The notes beneath the pieces are model-generated. The model was not told the DNA's origin. It made no database searches and saw nothing but the letters and a program-made list of their open reading frames with translations. The translations under genes and the position numbers were made by a program. This document shows, piece after piece, positions 23,865-27,771 of a stretch of DNA of 64,000 nt; the first letter of the stretch is position 1; the number at the start of each line of letters is the position of its first letter. The DNA lies in contig VAXG01000036.1 in NCBI GenBank assembly GCA_005883355.1, forward strand, positions 62,001 through 126,000. Direction: 5' to 3'. The stretch comes from Actinomycetota bacterium (GTDB lineage: Bacteria > Actinomycetota > Thermoleophilia > Gaiellales > Gaiellaceae).

Positions 23865-25163
23865 CTAGTCCTTGTACAGGTCCTGCACGTCGCGGCCGGC
23901 CATCGCCACGCCGAGCGGGCGCAGCGTGTGCTTCACGCGGATCGAGCCCGCATGCGCAGCGAGCACCTCCGGCAGGCGCTTGTACACCTCCGGCGCCTCG
24001 TCCGCACCGCCGCCCACGAGCACGATGCCCTGCTCGCGCAGACGCGCCTGCACGGCCGGCCAGTCGACGACGCCAGGCTTGATCTGCTCCTCGACCCAGA
24101 CCCTCTTCAGGCCCGCGTCCGGATGGTCCGGGCACGCGCCTTCGCCGTCGAAGACGCGGTCGCACTCGCGGTTCCGGCAGATCCAGCGCTTGCGCCGGCG
24201 CACACGGCCCGCCGCCTGCGAGCGACTCATCACACGACCGGCGCCGTGGACGGTCGAGAAGAGCGACTGCTCGGCGTCGGCGCCCGCGACCCCCGCGAGG
24301 ATCACGGACTCGTCACCCATCGAGCCACCGACGAAGCCCTCCTGACCGGGACGCGCCGGAGTGCAGCCCTTGCGGATCACCCAGTACGTGCGCCCGAAGT
24401 GATCCTCGCGCCAAGCGAAGTTGTGGTGATTGTGCACCTCGTGCACGGCCTCCGCGCCGAGGATCTCGAGCACCTTGCCGACCACGACGTCGCGGCCGGC
24501 GTAGGCGTACTCTCCCGCGAGCTCCATGGCGGAAACGTAGGACTCGCCGAGCTCGGAGCCGACCTCGAAGAGGACTGGCGGGGAGTCCATTTCTCCCTCG
24601 CTGGCCCGGCCACCGAAAGGCAGTCCCTGCGCGAGCGCGAGGAAACCGGATGCCGTCTTGTGGCCGAAGCCGCGCGAGCCGAAGTGGACGCCGACCCAGA
24701 TGCGACCCTCCTCGTCCTCCATCACGTTGACGTAGTGGTTGCCGGAGCCAACCGTGCCGAGCTGCGACGCCGCAAGCTGGTGCAGCTTCCTCTGGGGGGC
24801 GAACTCGGCGTGCCGGATCTTGTCGAGCACCGGGTGATCGCTGCGCTCCTGCGCCGGGACACCCATCCCGAACGAGATCCGCCGTGTGATCTCGCGCATG
24901 ATCGCCTCGACGCCGCCCAGCGCGCCGAGGTCCGTTCGCGTCAGGTCCGTCCGCGCCGCCTTGTTGCCGCAGCCGATGTCATAGCCACATCCGGACGGCG
25001 ACACGTAACCCTCGTAGGCGATAGCGCCGCCGATCGGCTGGCTGTAACCCGGGTGGTGGTCGGCGCAGAGCACGCCGAACTCGGCGTCGCCCACCTCCAT
25101 GCACCGCTCGAGCTGCGCGAGGCTGCGCGGGTCGACGGTGCCGAACGTCTTGATCGTGCTCAT
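23865..25163 (-). CDS. rtcB: RNA-splicing/repair ligase RtcB with zinc-ribbon-like insert
   Basis: A 432-residue GTP/Mn-dependent ligase that joins 2',3'-cyclic-phosphate (or 3'-phosphate) ends to 5'-OH ends, mainly in cleaved tRNA. Metal and nucleotide residues are visible: C59/C65 in SGCGYDIGCG, GSGNHY (139-144), HFGSRGFGH (160-168), HNHHN (244-248), GGSMG (279-283) and the guanylylated His306 in HGAGR. An insertion of about 40 residues after the HGAGR loop carries C329, C334, C344 and H347, resembling a zinc ribbon. The start follows GGAAGGAG. Upstream on the same strand are tRNA-Cys, a Cys-rich protein and a tRNA array. No archease gene is adjacent. Confidence 0.93.
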   Translation of the reverse strand: MSTIKTFGTVDPRSLAQLERCMEVGDAEFGVLCADHHPGYSQPIGGAIAYEGYVSPSGCGYDIGCGNKAARTDLTRTDLGALGGVEAIMREITRRISFGMGVPAQERSDHPVLDKIRHAEFAPQRKLHQLAASQLGTVGSGNHYVNVMEDEEGRIWVGVHFGSRGFGHKTASGFLALAQGLPFGGRASEGEMDSPPVLFEVGSELGESYVSAMELAGEYAYAGRDVVVGKVLEILGAEAVHEVHNHHNFAWREDHFGRTYWVIRKGCTPARPGQEGFVGGSMGDESVILAGVAGADAEQSLFSTVHGAGRVMSRSQAAGRVRRRKRWICRNRECDRVFDGEGACPDHPDAGLKRVWVEEQIKPGVVDWPAVQARLREQGIVLVGGGADEAPEVYKRLPEVLAAHAGSIRVKHTLRPLGVAMAGRDVQDLYKD

Positions 25164-25195
25164 GACGTGACTCCTTCCATTGTGGCTCGCTGAAA

Positions 25196-25265
25196 GACAC
25201 CGGGCGGAATCGAACCGCCGTAGCGCGCTTTGCAGGCGCGCACCTCGCCGCTCGGTCACGGTGTC
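25196..25265 (-). tRNA. tRNA-Cys(GCA)
   Basis: Folds as a cloverleaf on the minus strand: acceptor GACACCG / CGGTGTC (7 bp), 3-bp D stem ACC/GGT, anticodon stem CGCGC/GCGCG with loop CTGCAAA (anticodon GCA), and T arm GGCGG-TTCGATT-CCGCC. 70 nt; no encoded CCA. It lies between the Cys-rich protein gene and rtcB, separated from the main array by one protein gene. Confidence 0.92.
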
Positions 25266-25274
25266 GCGCTCGAG

Positions 25275-25315
25275 CGAACGGGCGGCGGCTGCAATGGGTC
25301 GCCACCGCCCGTTCG
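25275..25315 (-). terminator. Strong hairpin after the Cys-rich protein gene
   Basis: An 11-bp perfect inverted repeat (CGAACGGGCGG at 25275-25285 with CCGCCCGTTCG at 25305-25315) and a 19-nt loop, 8 bp after the stop of the 25324-25695 gene and just before tRNA-Cys. No T-run follows, so it may be an RNA processing or stability element rather than an intrinsic terminator. Confidence 0.5.
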
Positions 25316-25323
25316 ATCCGGCT

Positions 25324-25695
25324 TCAGTCCCGCTGTTGTGCAAGCTCGCGCTCTCGCTGGTCGTACGGCTCGAACTCGGCCACCAGGCCCTCGCGGAAGA
25401 CGCGGAGAGCCGCCAGCAGAGTGTCGAGCTTGTGCAGCGAGTTGGCACGGCCTGTCTCCGAATCGACGTCGAACTCGAGACCGATCCAGCGGTTGCAGTC
25501 GGCGATCTCGAGGATCATCCGCGGCTCGAAGTTGTACGGGCACTCCCGACAGTTCTCGTCCTCGCAGCCGCCGCAGTGCTGGAGACCACGCTCGCGCGTG
25601 TCCTCGACGTAGGCCATCACGTACGCGCCGCCGTGGAAGCCGGGCAGGTTCAGGAACCAGCGCTCGTTGACACGAGCGCGATACGGCAGTCCCAT
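25324..25695 (-). CDS. Cys-rich hypothetical protein between tRNA array and rtcB
   Basis: A 123-residue soluble protein with no signal peptide. A cluster of cysteines, CGGCEDENCRECPYNFEPRM (about residues 41-60), looks like a compact metal site. Other marked segments are RWFLNLPGFHGGAYVMAYVE at the start and CNRWIGLEFDVDSETGRANSLHKL. The C-terminus is a charged helix. It has a GGAAGGAG ribosome site identical to that of rtcB. I do not recognise the family. Its placement inside the tRNA/rtcB cluster, with tRNA genes on both sides, suggests a partner in RNA binding or repair; that is inference. Confidence 0.8.
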   Translation of the reverse strand: MGLPYRARVNERWFLNLPGFHGGAYVMAYVEDTRERGLQHCGGCEDENCRECPYNFEPRMILEIADCNRWIGLEFDVDSETGRANSLHKLDTLLAALRVFREGLVAEFEPYDQRERELAQQRD

Positions 25696-25811
25696 GTCGT
25701 GCTCCTTCCTAGGCCGATCAGCCGGCCGGCCGTCGTATCGTCAAGCGCTGGACCCGACGCCGCCTGCGAGACGGCGCCTAGCCTCGCCGGAGTCCGCGAA
25801 TCTGTTGCAGC
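25696..25811 (-). other. Leader between tRNA-Trp and the Cys-rich gene, with hairpin
   Basis: This 116-bp stretch holds a 7-bp hairpin (GACGCCG 25756-25762 with CGGCGCC 25772-25778) and the self-complementary run GCCGGCCGGC at 25721-25730. There is no complete tRNA: no T-loop TTCRA or matching acceptor pair. It is presumably spacer and 5' leader of the Cys-rich gene. Confidence 0.4.
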
Positions 25812-25881
25812 AGGTCCGCCAGGGATCGACCCGGACCAGCGAGGTTGGAGCTCGCCGTGCTACCGGTTACACCACGGACCT
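25812..25881 (-). tRNA. tRNA-Trp(CCA), T loop atypical
   Basis: Acceptor AGGTCCG/CGGACCT is perfect; anticodon stem GCGAG/CTCGC with loop CTCCAAC gives CCA. In the T arm the normal TTC start of the loop is replaced (GTCGATC) and the stem has a C-T mismatch. 70 nt. Last gene of the main array. Confidence 0.82.
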
Positions 25882-25886
25882 GTGAA

Positions 25887-25957
25887 GCGGACGACTCGGA
25901 TCGAACGGGCCTATCCGGGTTGGCGGCCCGGTGCTCTGCCTGCTGAGCTACGTCGGC
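25887..25957 (-). tRNA. tRNA-Gly(GCC) with C at position 33
   Basis: Acceptor GCCGACG/CGTCCGC with one C-C mismatch; anticodon stem CCGGG/CCCGG; loop CCGCCAA, anticodon GCC. Position 33, almost universally U, is C here. The T stem has one mismatch. 71 nt. Confidence 0.8.
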
Positions 25958-25965
25958 GTGCTGAA

Positions 25966-26037
25966 GCCTCCGGCAGGAGTCGAACCCACGCCTCGGCCGT
26001 ACAAAGGGCGCGTGCTTGCCGTTGACACTACGGAGGC
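25966..26037 (-). tRNA. tRNA-Thr(TGT)
   Basis: Acceptor GCCTCCG/CGGAGGC perfect; loop TTTGTAC with anticodon TGT; anticodon stem CGCCC/GGCCG contains one C-C mismatch; T stem GTGGG/CCTGC closes with two G-T pairs. 72 nt. A weaker-than-usual anticodon arm. Confidence 0.78.
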
Positions 26038-26043
26038 ATTGAT

Positions 26044-26119
26044 GGAGACGGTGGGAGTCGAACCCACTCGAACGCCGAAAAATCGTCATGGCCCGCGAAG
26101 CGGGCCGGATTTTCCGGCG
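26044..26119 (-). other. tRNA 3' half joined to a long hairpin
   Basis: Reading the minus strand, 26119-26073 forms a hairpin: outer arms CGCCGGAAAATC and GATTTTTCGGCG (one imperfect position) enclose a perfect 7-bp stem GGCCCGC-TTC-GCGGGCC. It is followed by an intact T arm GTGGG-TTCGACT-CCCAC (26067-26051) and an acceptor 3' strand CGTCTCC (26050-26044). No matching 5' strand GGAGACG exists before it, so this is a tRNA 3' half whose 5' half has been replaced by, or fused to, the hairpin. Confidence 0.65.
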
Positions 26120-26120
26120 T

Positions 26121-26193
26121 AAGGACGACCGGACTCGAACCGGCGCGTGCTCGCCTGACAAGCGAGTGCTCTCAGCCGCTGAGCTACGTCCCC
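26121..26193 (-). tRNA. tRNA-Asp(GTC)
   Basis: Acceptor GGGGACG/CGTCCTT (two G-T pairs), D stem GCTC/GAGC, anticodon stem CTCGC/GCGAG with loop TTGTCAG (GTC), T arm GCCGG-TTCGAGT-CCGGT. 73 nt. One of the most canonical members of the array. Confidence 0.92.
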
Positions 26194-26202
26194 GAATGAA
26201 GT

Positions 26203-26275
26203 AGCGCCGGTGGGATTCGAACCCACGGTCTCGAGCTCATGAGGCTCGCGGGGACAGCCACTCCCCTACAGCGCG
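26203..26275 (-). tRNA. tRNA-Met(CAT), elongator type
   Basis: Anticodon stem CGAGC/GCTCG with loop CTCATGA (CAT); T arm GTGGG-TTCGAAT-CCCAC; acceptor CGCGCTG/CGGCGCT with the first pair C-T mismatched. It lacks the three G-C pairs of initiator anticodon stems, so it is read as elongator (or an Ile2 precursor). 73 nt. Confidence 0.86.
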
Positions 26276-26278
26276 AAT

Positions 26279-26351
26279 CTGCCCGCCTGGAGTCGAACCA
26301 GCGATCTCGGCGCCCAAAGCCGGAGGGTTGGCCACGCTTCCCTACAGGCAG
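26279..26351 (-). tRNA. tRNA-Pro(TGG)
   Basis: Acceptor CTGCCTG/CGGGCAG (7 pairs, one G-T); anticodon loop TTTGGGC (TGG) with the proline-typical G37; anticodon stem CCGGC/GCCGA has a terminal mismatch; T stem GCTGG/CCAGG with one mismatch. 73 nt. Confidence 0.85.
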
Positions 26352-26568
26352 AAGTGAGGGCGAAACGACCTAGACCGAAATCGTCACGACTCGTCGAACC
26401 ACGTCCCGGTGTCGGACACCGTGTCGTCGAGCCCGCCGCGATGTCACCGAACCCGCAACGACTCCCGATTCGAGCCAGTTCCTTGATGTCCAACTAGTCC
26501 ACGTCCCGGTGTCGGACATGGTGACGAGAGTGTGACGGAGTTTCCACAGACCTCGTCGTTCGGTTAGT
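26352..26568. repeat. Degenerate spacer in the tRNA array with two palindromic repeats
   Basis: A 217-bp interval without a complete tRNA splits the array. It holds two copies of a 19-nt direct repeat beginning ACGTCCCGGTGTCGGACA (at 26401 and 26501). The first contains the perfect palindrome GGTGTCGGACACC (26408-26420); the second is slightly degenerate. It belongs to the intergenic palindrome family seen at 5.5 kb. A lone GATTCGAGCC (about 26467-26476) resembles a T-arm remnant. Confidence 0.6.
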
Positions 26569-26641
26569 ACCCCCGGCGGGACTCGAACCCGCAACTTCCG
26601 GATTGAGAGTCCGGCGTCATAGCCCGTTCGACCACGGGGGC
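26569..26641 (-). tRNA. tRNA-Glu(CTC)
   Basis: Acceptor GCCCCCG/CGGGGGT (first pair G-T), anticodon stem CCGGA/TCCGG with loop CTCTCAA (CTC), T arm GCGGG-TTCGAGT-CCCGC. 73 nt. Confidence 0.92.
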
Positions 26642-26660
26642 GTGCGGTTACTTCGACAAG

Positions 26661-26732
26661 CTCCGGCGCCAGGGCTCGAACCTGGGCCTCGCGATTAACA
26701 GTCGCGCGTCTTACCGCTCGACTACACCGGAA
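26661..26732 (-). tRNA. tRNA-Asn(GTT)
   Basis: Acceptor TTCCGGT/GCCGGAG (two G-T pairs), D stem GTC/GAC, anticodon stem CGCGA/TCGCG with loop CTGTTAA (GTT), T arm CCAGG-TTCGAGC-CCTGG. 72 nt. Confidence 0.92.
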
Positions 26733-26739
26733 CGAAAGC

Positions 26740-26820
26740 GGAAGGAGAGGGAGTCGAACCCCCAAGGCCGAAGCCCACCCGTTTTCGAGACGGGATACCG
26801 CGCCAGATGGCAGTCCTTCC
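26740..26820 (-). tRNA. tRNA-Ser(CGA)
   Basis: Acceptor GGAAGGA/TCCTTCC perfect, discriminator G as expected for Ser, anticodon stem CCCGT/ACGGG with loop CTCGAAA (CGA), long variable arm GGGC-TTCG-GCCT, T arm GGGGG-TTCGACT-CCCTC. 81 nt, class II. Confidence 0.93.
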
Positions 26821-26827
26821 AGCAGGT

Positions 26828-26900
26828 GGCCCCGGCAGGAGTCGAACCTGCACGCCCCGCGTTTCAAGCGGGTGCTCTACCTGATTGGAGCCACGACCAC
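26828..26900 (-). tRNA. tRNA-Phe(GAA)-like, damaged acceptor stem
   Basis: D stem GCTC/GAGC, anticodon stem CCCGC/GCGGG with loop TTGAAAC (GAA) and T arm GCAGG-TTCGACT-CCTGC are sound. The acceptor is not: the 3' strand CGGGGCC would need GGCCCCG, but the 5' strand reads GTGGTCG, leaving about three mismatches. 73 nt. It may be inactive or need a non-standard fold. Confidence 0.75.
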
Positions 26901-26907
26901 ACGAGAT

Positions 26908-26980
26908 GGGCGAGGTTGGAGTCGAGCCAGCGGTCTCTTGTTTGTAAGACAAGCGCTCTAGCCGTCTAAGCCACTCGCCC
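26908..26980 (-). tRNA. tRNA-Val(TAC)
   Basis: Acceptor GGGCGAG/CTCGCCC perfect; anticodon stem CTTGT/ACAAG with loop CTTACAA (TAC); T arm GCTGG-CTCGACT-CCAAC with one mismatch and C replacing the usual first T of the T loop. 73 nt. A tRNA 5' fragment abuts it. Confidence 0.88.
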
Positions 26981-26999
26981 GCGCTGAGCTACCCGCCCG
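26981..26999 (-). other. tRNA 5' fragment abutting tRNA-Val
   Basis: Immediately before the Val gene the minus strand reads CGGGCGGGTAGCTCAGCGC: an acceptor 5' strand (GGGCGGG) plus the start of a D arm (TAGCTCAGC). No anticodon or T arm follows; the next base is the first of tRNA-Val. It looks like a recombination scar left when a tRNA was replaced or deleted. Confidence 0.65.
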
Positions 27000-27016
27000 T
27001 GTGACGCTTCGCAATT

Positions 27017-27084
27017 TCGGGACAAGGGGTCGAACCTCGATCTCCACGTTCAGAGCGTGACGTCCTGCCATTAGACGATCCCGA
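27017..27084 (-). tRNA. tRNA-Gln(CTG)
   Basis: Acceptor TCGGGAT/GTCCCGA (last pair T-G), short D arm GTC/GAC, anticodon stem TCACG/CGTGG with loop CTCTGAA (CTG), T arm around GAGG-TTCGACC-CCTT. 68 nt plus discriminator. First gene of the array in the direction of transcription. Confidence 0.87.
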
Positions 27085-27396
27085 AAGGTCTGTTTCTTCG
27101 TCTGCTATGTCTCGCCCGGCCTGAGCCGAAGCGATGTTTTCCAAGCCTCTCGCCTACCCTTCGACCCTGGATCGACAGTTCGTACAACAGAACGCCGTCC
27201 TACGTGGAGGAGCTTTGGAGCCCGATTCTTGCTTGCCGGCTGGAAAAGCACAGGCTAAAGCTGACGCTTATTCGCCGATGGCATTTCTCAGCGCGCGGCT
27301 TCAGAGATCTTTCTCTCTCAGGCGGGGCCTCGATTCGATTTTGAGCTTCTCAAGCTGAGCATCACCTTCTGTCTGACGTTGTCTGGTCGCCCCTTC
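27085..27396. other. Non-coding leader of the tRNA array; no gene recognised
   Basis: About 310 bp between the first tRNA and the terminator at 27397. Open frames here are short and lack ribosome sites or recognisable content. Base composition is less GC-rich than the neighbours. It probably contains the array promoter, which I could not place with confidence. Confidence 0.5.
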
Positions 27397-27426
27397 AACA
27401 AAAAGGCGACCCGCTCTGGGGTCGCC
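27397..27426 (-). terminator. Rho-independent terminator (minus strand)
   Basis: On the minus strand GGCGACCC-CAGAGC-GGGTCGCC (27426-27405) is a perfect 8-bp stem with a 6-nt loop, directly followed by TTTTTGTTG (27404-27396). This is the clearest intrinsic terminator in the window. It ends the short unit that starts at the promoter near 27648 and lies upstream of the tRNA array. Confidence 0.85.
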
Positions 27427-27456
27427 CTCGTCTGGCTTGCATCTGCGGCCAGGGAT

Positions 27457-27597
27457 CTAGCGCAGCGAGCTCCCAGCGAGGGCTACGACGTGGCCGTACC
27501 GGCGGATCGCATCGCTGCGATGCAGGCACGGCAGAGCCGTTGCGGCGATGGCCGCTTCGGCGAGAAATGATTGGGTGTTCGCTTTGATCATCATCAT
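27457..27597 (-). CDS. Possible 46-aa small ORF / leader peptide
   Basis: A short frame starting ATG-ATG-ATG (MMMIKANTQSFLAEAAI) between a good promoter (27648-27620) and a good terminator (27426-27397). Its 46 residues show no known family and no membrane segment. No convincing ribosome site precedes it. It could be a real small protein, a leader peptide in an attenuator, or a chance frame inside a small RNA of about 210 nt. Confidence 0.3.
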   Translation of the reverse strand: MMMIKANTQSFLAEAAIAATALPCLHRSDAIRRYGHVVALAGSSLR

Positions 27598-27619
27598 GGT
27601 GTGGCTAGTGCCGGATCGC

Positions 27620-27648
27620 AGGATAGAGCAAAGATCGGACAATCGCAA
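27620..27648 (-). promoter_or_regulatory. Predicted sigma-70-type promoter
   Basis: Minus strand TTGCGA (27648-27643), 17-bp spacer, TATCCT (27625-27620). The start would fall near 27613, about 16 bp before the ATG of the small ORF. It drives the promoter-ORF-terminator unit and points toward the tRNA array; iolC lies on the other side. Confidence 0.55.
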
Positions 27649-27771
27649 GAGTTCCAAACGAAGATCTAACGAACAGTAGTCCCGTTCCGACGCAGAACGC
27701 AGAAAGAAATGCTCGATGTGATTCGCCGCCTTCTCGCGACACAACTTCTCGCTTCGAAGGAAAATGCGCCG

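Follow-up and report, generated by a model that had tools for sequence, protein, structure and literature searches.

A tRNA array adjoining rtcB behind a predicted translation attenuator in a Gaiellaceae genome

Arrays of extra tRNAs and RNA-repair operons built around the ligase RtcB are each already known in bacteria, although questions remain about why silent extra tRNAs are kept and which substrates RtcB repairs in vivo. Ro60 and Y RNAs are known partners of such RtcB operons. In Anabaena, the repressor TrcR controls both rtcB and a trn operon of 26 tRNAs, and antibiotics that target translation induce them (PMC10272220); in Salmonella, the rsr-yrlBA-rtcBA operon is regulated by damaged tRNAs (PMC7790460). 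tRNA array units are defined by at least 20 tRNAs at a density of at least 2 per kb (PMC5966550). In the whiB7/wblC attenuator, completed translation of an upstream open reading frame (uORF) leads to a terminator and disrupted translation to an antiterminator (PMC11550727). Here, we describe a locus from a member of the Gaiellaceae (Actinomycetota), contained in a 64,000-nt stretch (the window; G000:C74:62001-126000) of a 180-kb contig from a 3.19-Mb draft genome (G000, 95% complete). Its gene content and orientation, the non-housekeeping nature of its tRNAs and a conserved, mutually exclusive pairing in its leader are read directly from the sequence; together they suggest that it is probably a translation-stress-inducible operon supplying spare, divergent tRNAs and RtcB.

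The leader occupies ~560 nt upstream of tRNA-Gln and was not reported in the first-pass annotation, which described the tRNAs and rtcB. For the search and the tallies below, up to 399 genomes of the class were sampled, and leaders were found through a motif ~60 nt upstream of tRNA-Gln. This gave 10 leaders from nine genomes, either of the same family (G000, G011, G015, G157, G229 with two copies, G267, and G277) or of other families of the class (G137 and G248). Their alignment revealed four parts, specifically a promoter-like element, a uORF, an attenuator, and a ~270-nt structured RNA placed between the attenuator and the first tRNA. The promoter-like pattern (CTTGC..N17-18..TATCCT-like) is visible in eight family leaders at a constant distance to the uORF; a strict consensus scan called no promoter at the leader. 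The uORF begins with an ATG 45-46 codons ahead of a common stop in all seven intact family loci and has a conserved end (ALAxRxxR-stop); G248 and G137 have a shorter version and G015 a frameshifted one.

Within the uORF, the segment GCCCTCG(C) is complementary to (G)CGAGGGC, itself the 5′ arm of a strong hairpin before a T-rich stretch. In the predicted antiterminator, GCCCTCG (27483-27477) pairs with CGAGGGC (27430-27424) and an inner helix is added, and the predicted terminator consists of GGGCGACCC...GGGTCGCC plus TTTTTGTT. For all 10 leaders, alternative folds were predicted before and after synthesis of the 3′ arm of the hairpin; in the absence of this arm, the predicted fold was the antiterminator in 10/10 leaders, weakly so in G015 with its broken uORF. 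On the alignment, 82% of the cells were paired in the antiterminator, versus 33-46% for slid partners, with 10 pairs carrying two-sided changes versus 4.5 in shuffles, and the terminator was 97% paired; these counts are drawn from related sequences and are not probabilities. Pairing was kept by two-sided change or in a new context as CTTC/GAAG in G157, CCCTCGTA/TACGAGGG in G137, and CCCTCG/CGAGGG in the distant G248. A uORF combined with a mutually exclusive predicted antiterminator and terminator is the design of a whiB7/wblC-like attenuator. Neither 50,697 phage records nor 72,556 plasmid records contained a match to the leader, and 39 IMG/VR loci with a short leader motif lacked the other conserved blocks in a scripted check and were therefore dismissed as chance matches.

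In the ~270-nt RNA, a long-range helix and a 3′ hairpin covary (94% paired versus 27-41% for slid partners), and six pairs show two-sided changes, a count equalled in 1/500 shuffles; as for the attenuator, the sequences counted are related and the figures are not probabilities. No Rfam 15 family matched at E≤1, and this covarying leader RNA is possibly a new noncoding RNA family.

Downstream of the leader, 13 tRNA genes for 13 amino acids lie on the minus strand within 1.89 kb, in the transcript order Gln, Val, Phe, Ser, Asn, Glu, Pro, Met, Asp, Thr, Gly, Trp, the 123-aa open reading frame (ORF), Cys, and rtcB, so that Gln marks the 5′ end of the array. This layout had been described in the first-pass annotation and was borne out by ARAGORN, Infernal, and Pfam. 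The tRNA set is the union of the calls of the two tRNA programs: 12 minus-strand genes were called by ARAGORN (25195-27086), whereas Infernal added tRNA-Phe and did not report tRNA-Ser at the gathering score. Low-threshold ARAGORN output was noise and was left unused. The density is ~6.9 tRNAs per kb; such grouping is far beyond chance, given that the remaining 41 tRNA genes lie scattered through the assembly, alone or in twos and threes.

Those 41 genes cover 19 of the 20 amino acids and include second copies for 12 of the 13 array isotypes, in keeping with the earlier proposal that the array genes are not the housekeeping copies, except that tRNA-Asp is single in the 95%-complete draft. The same-genus genome G008, in which the leader pattern had no match, has 46 tRNAs, among them a separate housekeeping tRNA-Asp that is 73% identical to the array tRNA-Asp; a likely, though not proved, reason for the single Asp gene in the draft is therefore an assembly gap. 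Identity of the array tRNAs to housekeeping tRNAs of the same isotype is 61-76% within the genome, but with same-isotype counterparts from arrays of other genera it usually reaches 72-90%. The other arrays were closer in 10 of 11 comparable isotypes (the exception being Glu; Asp was compared with the G008 gene), and tRNA-Cys shares 90% identity with the tRNA-Cys that immediately precedes rtcB in L079. Degenerate features had also been noted earlier, and Rfam tRNA model scores agree, with an Infernal median of 55 for 12 array genes versus 67 for the 41 others (Mann-Whitney p=7e-5). Because they are diverged from housekeeping genes, nearer to other arrays and lower-scoring, the array tRNAs are, by these comparisons, a separate, partly degraded, non-housekeeping lineage. 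All 13 anticodons are intact and different, and, by visual comparison, several of the anticodon loops are unchanged from the host sequence.

The rtcB gene starts 31 nt downstream of tRNA-Cys and encodes the sole RtcB of the assembly. Aligned with Pyrococcus RtcB structures, the protein has all metal ligands and the guanylylated His (STVHGAGR) and keeps the catalytic residues of solved RtcB proteins, specifically Asp/Cys in GYDIGCG, Asn/His in GSGNH, and His in GVHFGS and VHNHHN; in fold and catalytic residues, the protein is thus a predicted RtcB ligase. Among named hits, the closest RtcB proteins come from metagenome-assembled genomes of actinobacteria, including Gaiellaceae and Thermoleophilaceae. 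RtcB proteins of this clade have a small Cys-containing insertion, WICRNRECDRVFDGEGACPDH (P0001 residues 325-350), after the guanylylated-His motif and ahead of the C-terminal segment; it may form a metal-binding ribbon. Phosphoenolpyruvate (PEP) mutase lies next to rtcB, the tested neighbors were PfkB, KduI, and a sugar-binding protein, and no rtcA or RtcR was found beside rtcB. The 123-aa ORF does lie between tRNA-Trp and tRNA-Cys as first annotated, but the Cys-richness then ascribed to its product is not conserved among homologs, which within the class were found only in the Gaiellaceae (5/299 genomes). The protein matched no Pfam, NCBIfam, or PHROG family and had no relative in the phage or plasmid records or in IMG/VR viral contigs; its single-sequence AlphaFold model (mean predicted local distance difference test score, 58.5) was too poor for a fold search.

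Table 1. Coordinates of the leader, array, and associated features in the window.
Feature	Position	Strand	Basis
Promoter-like element (TTGCGA, 17 nt, TATCCT)	27620..27648	-	Family leader comparison
Leader uORF, 46 codons (MMMIKANTQSFLAEAAIAAT...VVALAGSSLR*)	27457..27597	-	Conserved start/stop positions
Attenuator, antiterminator versus terminator	27397..27489	-	Alternative folds and covariation
Conserved structured RNA, ~270 nt; invariant GAGAGAGAAAG, CGGGCTCCA, and GATCCAGGG blocks	27105..27371	-	Alignment of 9 leaders
tRNA-Gln(CTG)	27014..27086	-	ARAGORN and Infernal
tRNA-Val(TAC)	26907..26980	-	ARAGORN and Infernal
tRNA-Phe(GAA), degenerate acceptor	26827..26898	-	Infernal, 39.3 bits; no ARAGORN call
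tRNA-Ser(CGA)	26738..26820	-	ARAGORN only
tRNA-Asn(GTT)	26660..26731	-	ARAGORN and Infernal
tRNA-Glu(CTC)	26567..26641	-	ARAGORN and Infernal
tRNA-Pro(TGG)	26277..26352	-	ARAGORN and Infernal
tRNA-Met(CAT)	26201..26275	-	ARAGORN and Infernal
tRNA-Asp(GTC)	26119..26193	-	ARAGORN and Infernal
tRNA-like 3′ piece (T arm and acceptor 3′ strand) behind a long hairpin, like a tmRNA 3′ end	26040..26118	-	Sub-threshold tmRNA match and fold
tRNA-Thr(TGT)	25965..26037	-	ARAGORN and Infernal
tRNA-Gly(GCC)	25886..25957	-	ARAGORN and Infernal
tRNA-Trp(CCA), short T loop	25810..25881	-	ARAGORN and Infernal
123-aa protein, ribosome-binding site GGAAGGAG	25324..25695	-	ORF between tRNA-Trp and tRNA-Cys
tRNA-Cys(GCA)	25195..25265	-	ARAGORN and Infernal
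rtcB, 432 aa, Cys-containing insertion before C-terminus	23865..25163	-	Pfam RtcB, E=4e-62
Segment absent from same-genus G003	23876..27730	.	blastn of G003 site

The gap from tRNA-Glu to tRNA-Pro (26353-26566) contains two direct copies of GTCCGACACCGGGACGTGG. The tRNA-like 3′ piece is joined to tRNA-Asp by a sub-threshold transfer-messenger RNA (tmRNA) match (30.1 bits; cutoff, 47), but a complete tmRNA at this position was rejected, as there is no room for one between tRNA-Asp and tRNA-Thr and the true tmRNA is on contig C97.

Also read from the sequence are the recurrence of the tRNA-rtcB junction across genera, Ro60/Y-RNA-like elements in relatives, and the near-complete loss of the module in one relative. 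A tRNA lies directly before rtcB in L079 (tRNA-Leu, tRNA-Arg, tRNA-Cys, then rtcB), L080/G011, L083/G248, and L092 (tRNA-Tyr). In G248 (L083/L200), a single run comprises the leader, tRNA-Phe, Lys, and Met, degenerate tRNAs, three Y-RNA-like elements, Ro60 (TROVE and vWA_Ro60), a 105-nt tRNA-like element, and rtcB, so that Ro60 and Y-RNA-like elements are both present. The Y-RNA signature GGTTATC...CACACGACC occurs in three elements, one of them a tRNA-like, sub-threshold YrlA match; these are consecutive upstream of Ro60 (L083:2688-3040), and at least one has a tRNA-like T arm and D arm. In the 105-nt element directly before rtcB (L083:4854-4958; Infernal, 45.5 bits), a long hairpin replaces the anticodon arm, and the element could be intron-bearing, Y-RNA-like, or tmRNA-like. 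In G011, the leader is followed by tRNAs Gln, Phe, Lys, Asn, Pro, Asp, His, Tyr, and others, a 123-aa homolog, Ro60 split over two frames, tRNA-Leu, tRNA-Arg, and the contig end, and rtcB begins a separate contig with a cut tRNA directly before it; we infer that the two contigs (C55 and C115) form one module because L079 shows tRNA-Leu, tRNA-Arg, tRNA-Cys, and rtcB in the order expected for the gap. The same RtcB type also occurs in Armatimonadetes, with Ro60 directly upstream (L093 and L096; partial match in L091).

Other relatives carry parts or variants of the module. G229 has two separate leader copies (L197 and L198), each followed by different tRNAs, a degenerate Val-like tRNA apparently fused to a Glu-like one in L198, and a DIP1984/DUF6847 protein in a place comparable to that of the 123-aa protein. 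In G040 (L201:9109-11041), a Ro60 gene is directly followed by tRNA-Glu, Pro, and Asp, with neither leader nor rtcB. The start of a 123-aa homolog and both ends of Ro60 are joined by internal deletions in G015 (L199:8422-9132), where the uORF is also frameshifted; judged from these remains, the module is decaying in G015. In the same-genus genome G003, PEP mutase and PfkB, the divergent genes on either side of the module, are direct neighbors. The two flanks join at the equivalents of window positions 23876 and 27730, and the junction retains ACAAGGACTAG, identical to the rtcB end; an TACAAGGACTAG/TGA end is seen in other clade rtcB genes. The most plausible account is that the 3.86-kb leader-tRNA-rtcB segment was deleted in G003, with an rtcB stub left behind; an insertion that reused the rtcB-end sequence is less likely.

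Because the leader shares the logic of the whiB7/wblC attenuator, impaired translation would be expected to switch on the array and rtcB. Transcription would start at ~27613, and ribosomes finishing the 46-codon uORF would mask GCCCTCG, such that the terminator forms and the operon is off. If translation failed or stalled, through tRNA cleavage or depletion or through ribosome inhibitors, GCCCTCG could pair with CGAGGGC and block the terminator, whereupon the polymerase would transcribe the rest of the operon, from the structured RNA and the 13 tRNAs to the 123-aa gene and rtcB; spare tRNAs would then refill the pool, and RtcB would rejoin broken RNAs with 2′,3′-cyclic phosphate ends. In nature, the trigger may be nuclease attack, antibiotics, or starvation. 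Co-transcription, the direction and trigger of the switch, tRNA charging, and the RtcB substrates are what we infer here.

Several observations weigh against such an operon. The covariation is based on 10 related sequences; the uORF body has no third-position excess (in a saturated codon-position test), so the peptide is not demonstrably selected, and its middle is not conserved at the codon level; and several array tRNAs, with their low scores, may be nonfunctional. Linkage, which the first-pass annotation had proposed as a physical coupling of array and rtcB, holds for the adjacencies described above but is patchy: an rtcB of the same type has no tRNAs in front in G006, G010, G016, G020, and G024, rtcB is missing from the drafts G157 and G229, which contain leader and tRNAs, and in G277 and G267 no tRNA follows the leader. 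In G015 and G137, rtcB and the leader with tRNAs are both present, on different contigs. The original idea of a module for spare tRNAs and repair is thus upheld by the extra tRNAs, the intact sole rtcB, the recurring adjacency, and the Ro60 and Y-RNA-like RNAs of relatives, but not by uniform linkage.

Alternatively, the array could be what is left of a decaying set of tRNAs that was acquired horizontally (from a plasmid, phage, or other element) and kept by drift, next to an rtcB that is useful alone and whose neighborhood is incidental. The low tRNA scores, the partial tRNA-like piece, the short T loop, the frameshifted uORF and internally deleted Ro60 of G015, the leaders without tRNAs, the loss in G003, and occurrence in only ~9/399 class genomes all fit, yet the leader pairing is kept by compensatory changes across genera and families, rtcB is intact, the array anticodons are kept, and the tRNA-rtcB junction recurs; we consider a remnant fairly unlikely. 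A phage or plasmid origin was rejected, as neither a leader match in those records nor a 123-aa homolog in phages, plasmids, or IMG/VR was found. An ordinary housekeeping cluster beside rtcB by accident deserves almost no credence: some bacterial phyla often have clustered tRNA genes (PMC5966550) and the only tRNA-Asp of the draft sits in the array, but the 41 separate tRNA genes, on which this explanation was rejected, the 46 tRNAs including Asp of G008, where the leader pattern had no match, and the divergence and recurrence of the array tRNAs all oppose it.

Two further explanations concern what the RNAs do. They could act mainly as decoys or scaffolds, either nuclease sponges or platforms resembling Ro60/Y-RNA, rather than as translating tRNAs; in relatives, the array includes Ro60 and Y-RNA-like elements, RNAs that resemble tRNAs but have an altered anticodon arm occur before rtcB in L083 and as the hairpin piece in the window, and a competitive-inhibitor role against a nuclease was suggested for Salmonella YrlA (PMC7790460). 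However, Ro60 was not detected in the window genome, a GGTTATC/ACGACC search of the window found no Y RNA motif, and 13 intact, all-different anticodons suit supply better, which makes this role improbable. Defense against anticodon nucleases of phages or competitors, for which the first-pass annotation had allowed, would be a special case of stress-inducible supply, with cleavage-resistant spare tRNAs and a ligase. Array tRNAs are strongly diverged from host tRNAs, phage tRNAs escape nucleases via anticodon-loop mutations (PMC10264068), and RtcB seals cyclic-phosphate ends; nevertheless, no nuclease gene turned up beside the module, although no search was aimed at nucleases, the several anticodon loops that keep the host sequence do not suit it, and such an attenuator would react to translation blocks of every kind, so we see only a slim chance of this specialization. 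The layout of the leader is more direct evidence for induction by translation impairment of a general kind than for anticodon nucleases as the target.

A locus that joins an array and RtcB under a built-in translation sensor yields a testable hypothesis, namely that loss of functional tRNAs slows uORF translation and frees the attenuator, so that spare tRNAs and the ligase are supplied, and the relatives with Ro60, Y-RNA-like elements, tRNAs, and rtcB in one run link these systems physically. A bolder proposal, which we put forward tentatively and regard as rather doubtful, is a stress island of a new kind, in which a translation-failure attenuator drives the ~270-nt structured RNA class, a separately inherited spare-tRNA lineage, and RtcB (with Ro60/Y RNAs in relatives), such that tRNA loss switches on both replacement and repair. 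Among the matches listed by a full-text search of open-access papers, none combined tRNA arrays with transcription attenuation or leader peptides, and in such a search only the Anabaena paper (PMC10272220) connected “tRNA array” and RtcB.

Compared with mycobacterial, plasmid, and phage tRNA array units (PMC5966550, PMC12803027), the locus is likewise dense, isotype-diverse, non-housekeeping, and actinobacterial, and those units sometimes also have structured noncoding RNA; it is not such a unit by definition because it has 13 genes where 20 are needed, and no similarity to its leader was found in phage or plasmid records; text searches of those two papers turned up no RtcB. Jumbo phages also combine their own tRNAs with RNA ligases such as RtcB and sometimes Ro/TROVE (PMC7824862), but the present locus is chromosomal, lies between PfkB and PEP mutase (sugar-metabolism-type) genes, and has no phage genes seen beside it. 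The Salmonella rsr-yrlBA-rtcBA operon (PMC7790460) is, by analogy, the nearest repair precedent, sharing RtcB and, with relatives of the module, Ro60 and Y-RNA-like RNAs between the tRNAs and rtcB (Ro60 in both G248 and G011); however, the locus is not an rtcBA operon because it contains no rtcA, RtcR, Ro60, or Y RNA, a tRNA array is present, and control is by sigma-54/RtcR in Salmonella and apparently by a translation attenuator here. The whiB7/wblC attenuator (PMC11550727) shares the uORF, an antiterminator overlapping the uORF end, and an intrinsic terminator, although its target is a transcription factor rather than a tRNA/RNA-repair operon with an extra ~270-nt RNA, and the likeness is one of design. 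By analogy, the nearest functional precedent is the Anabaena trn operon and TrcR regulon (PMC10272220), a non-housekeeping array that is silent by default, stress-induced, and co-controlled with rtcB; there, rtcB lies elsewhere in the genome and the repressor is a protein, whereas here rtcB adjoins the array and control apparently resides in the leader RNA.

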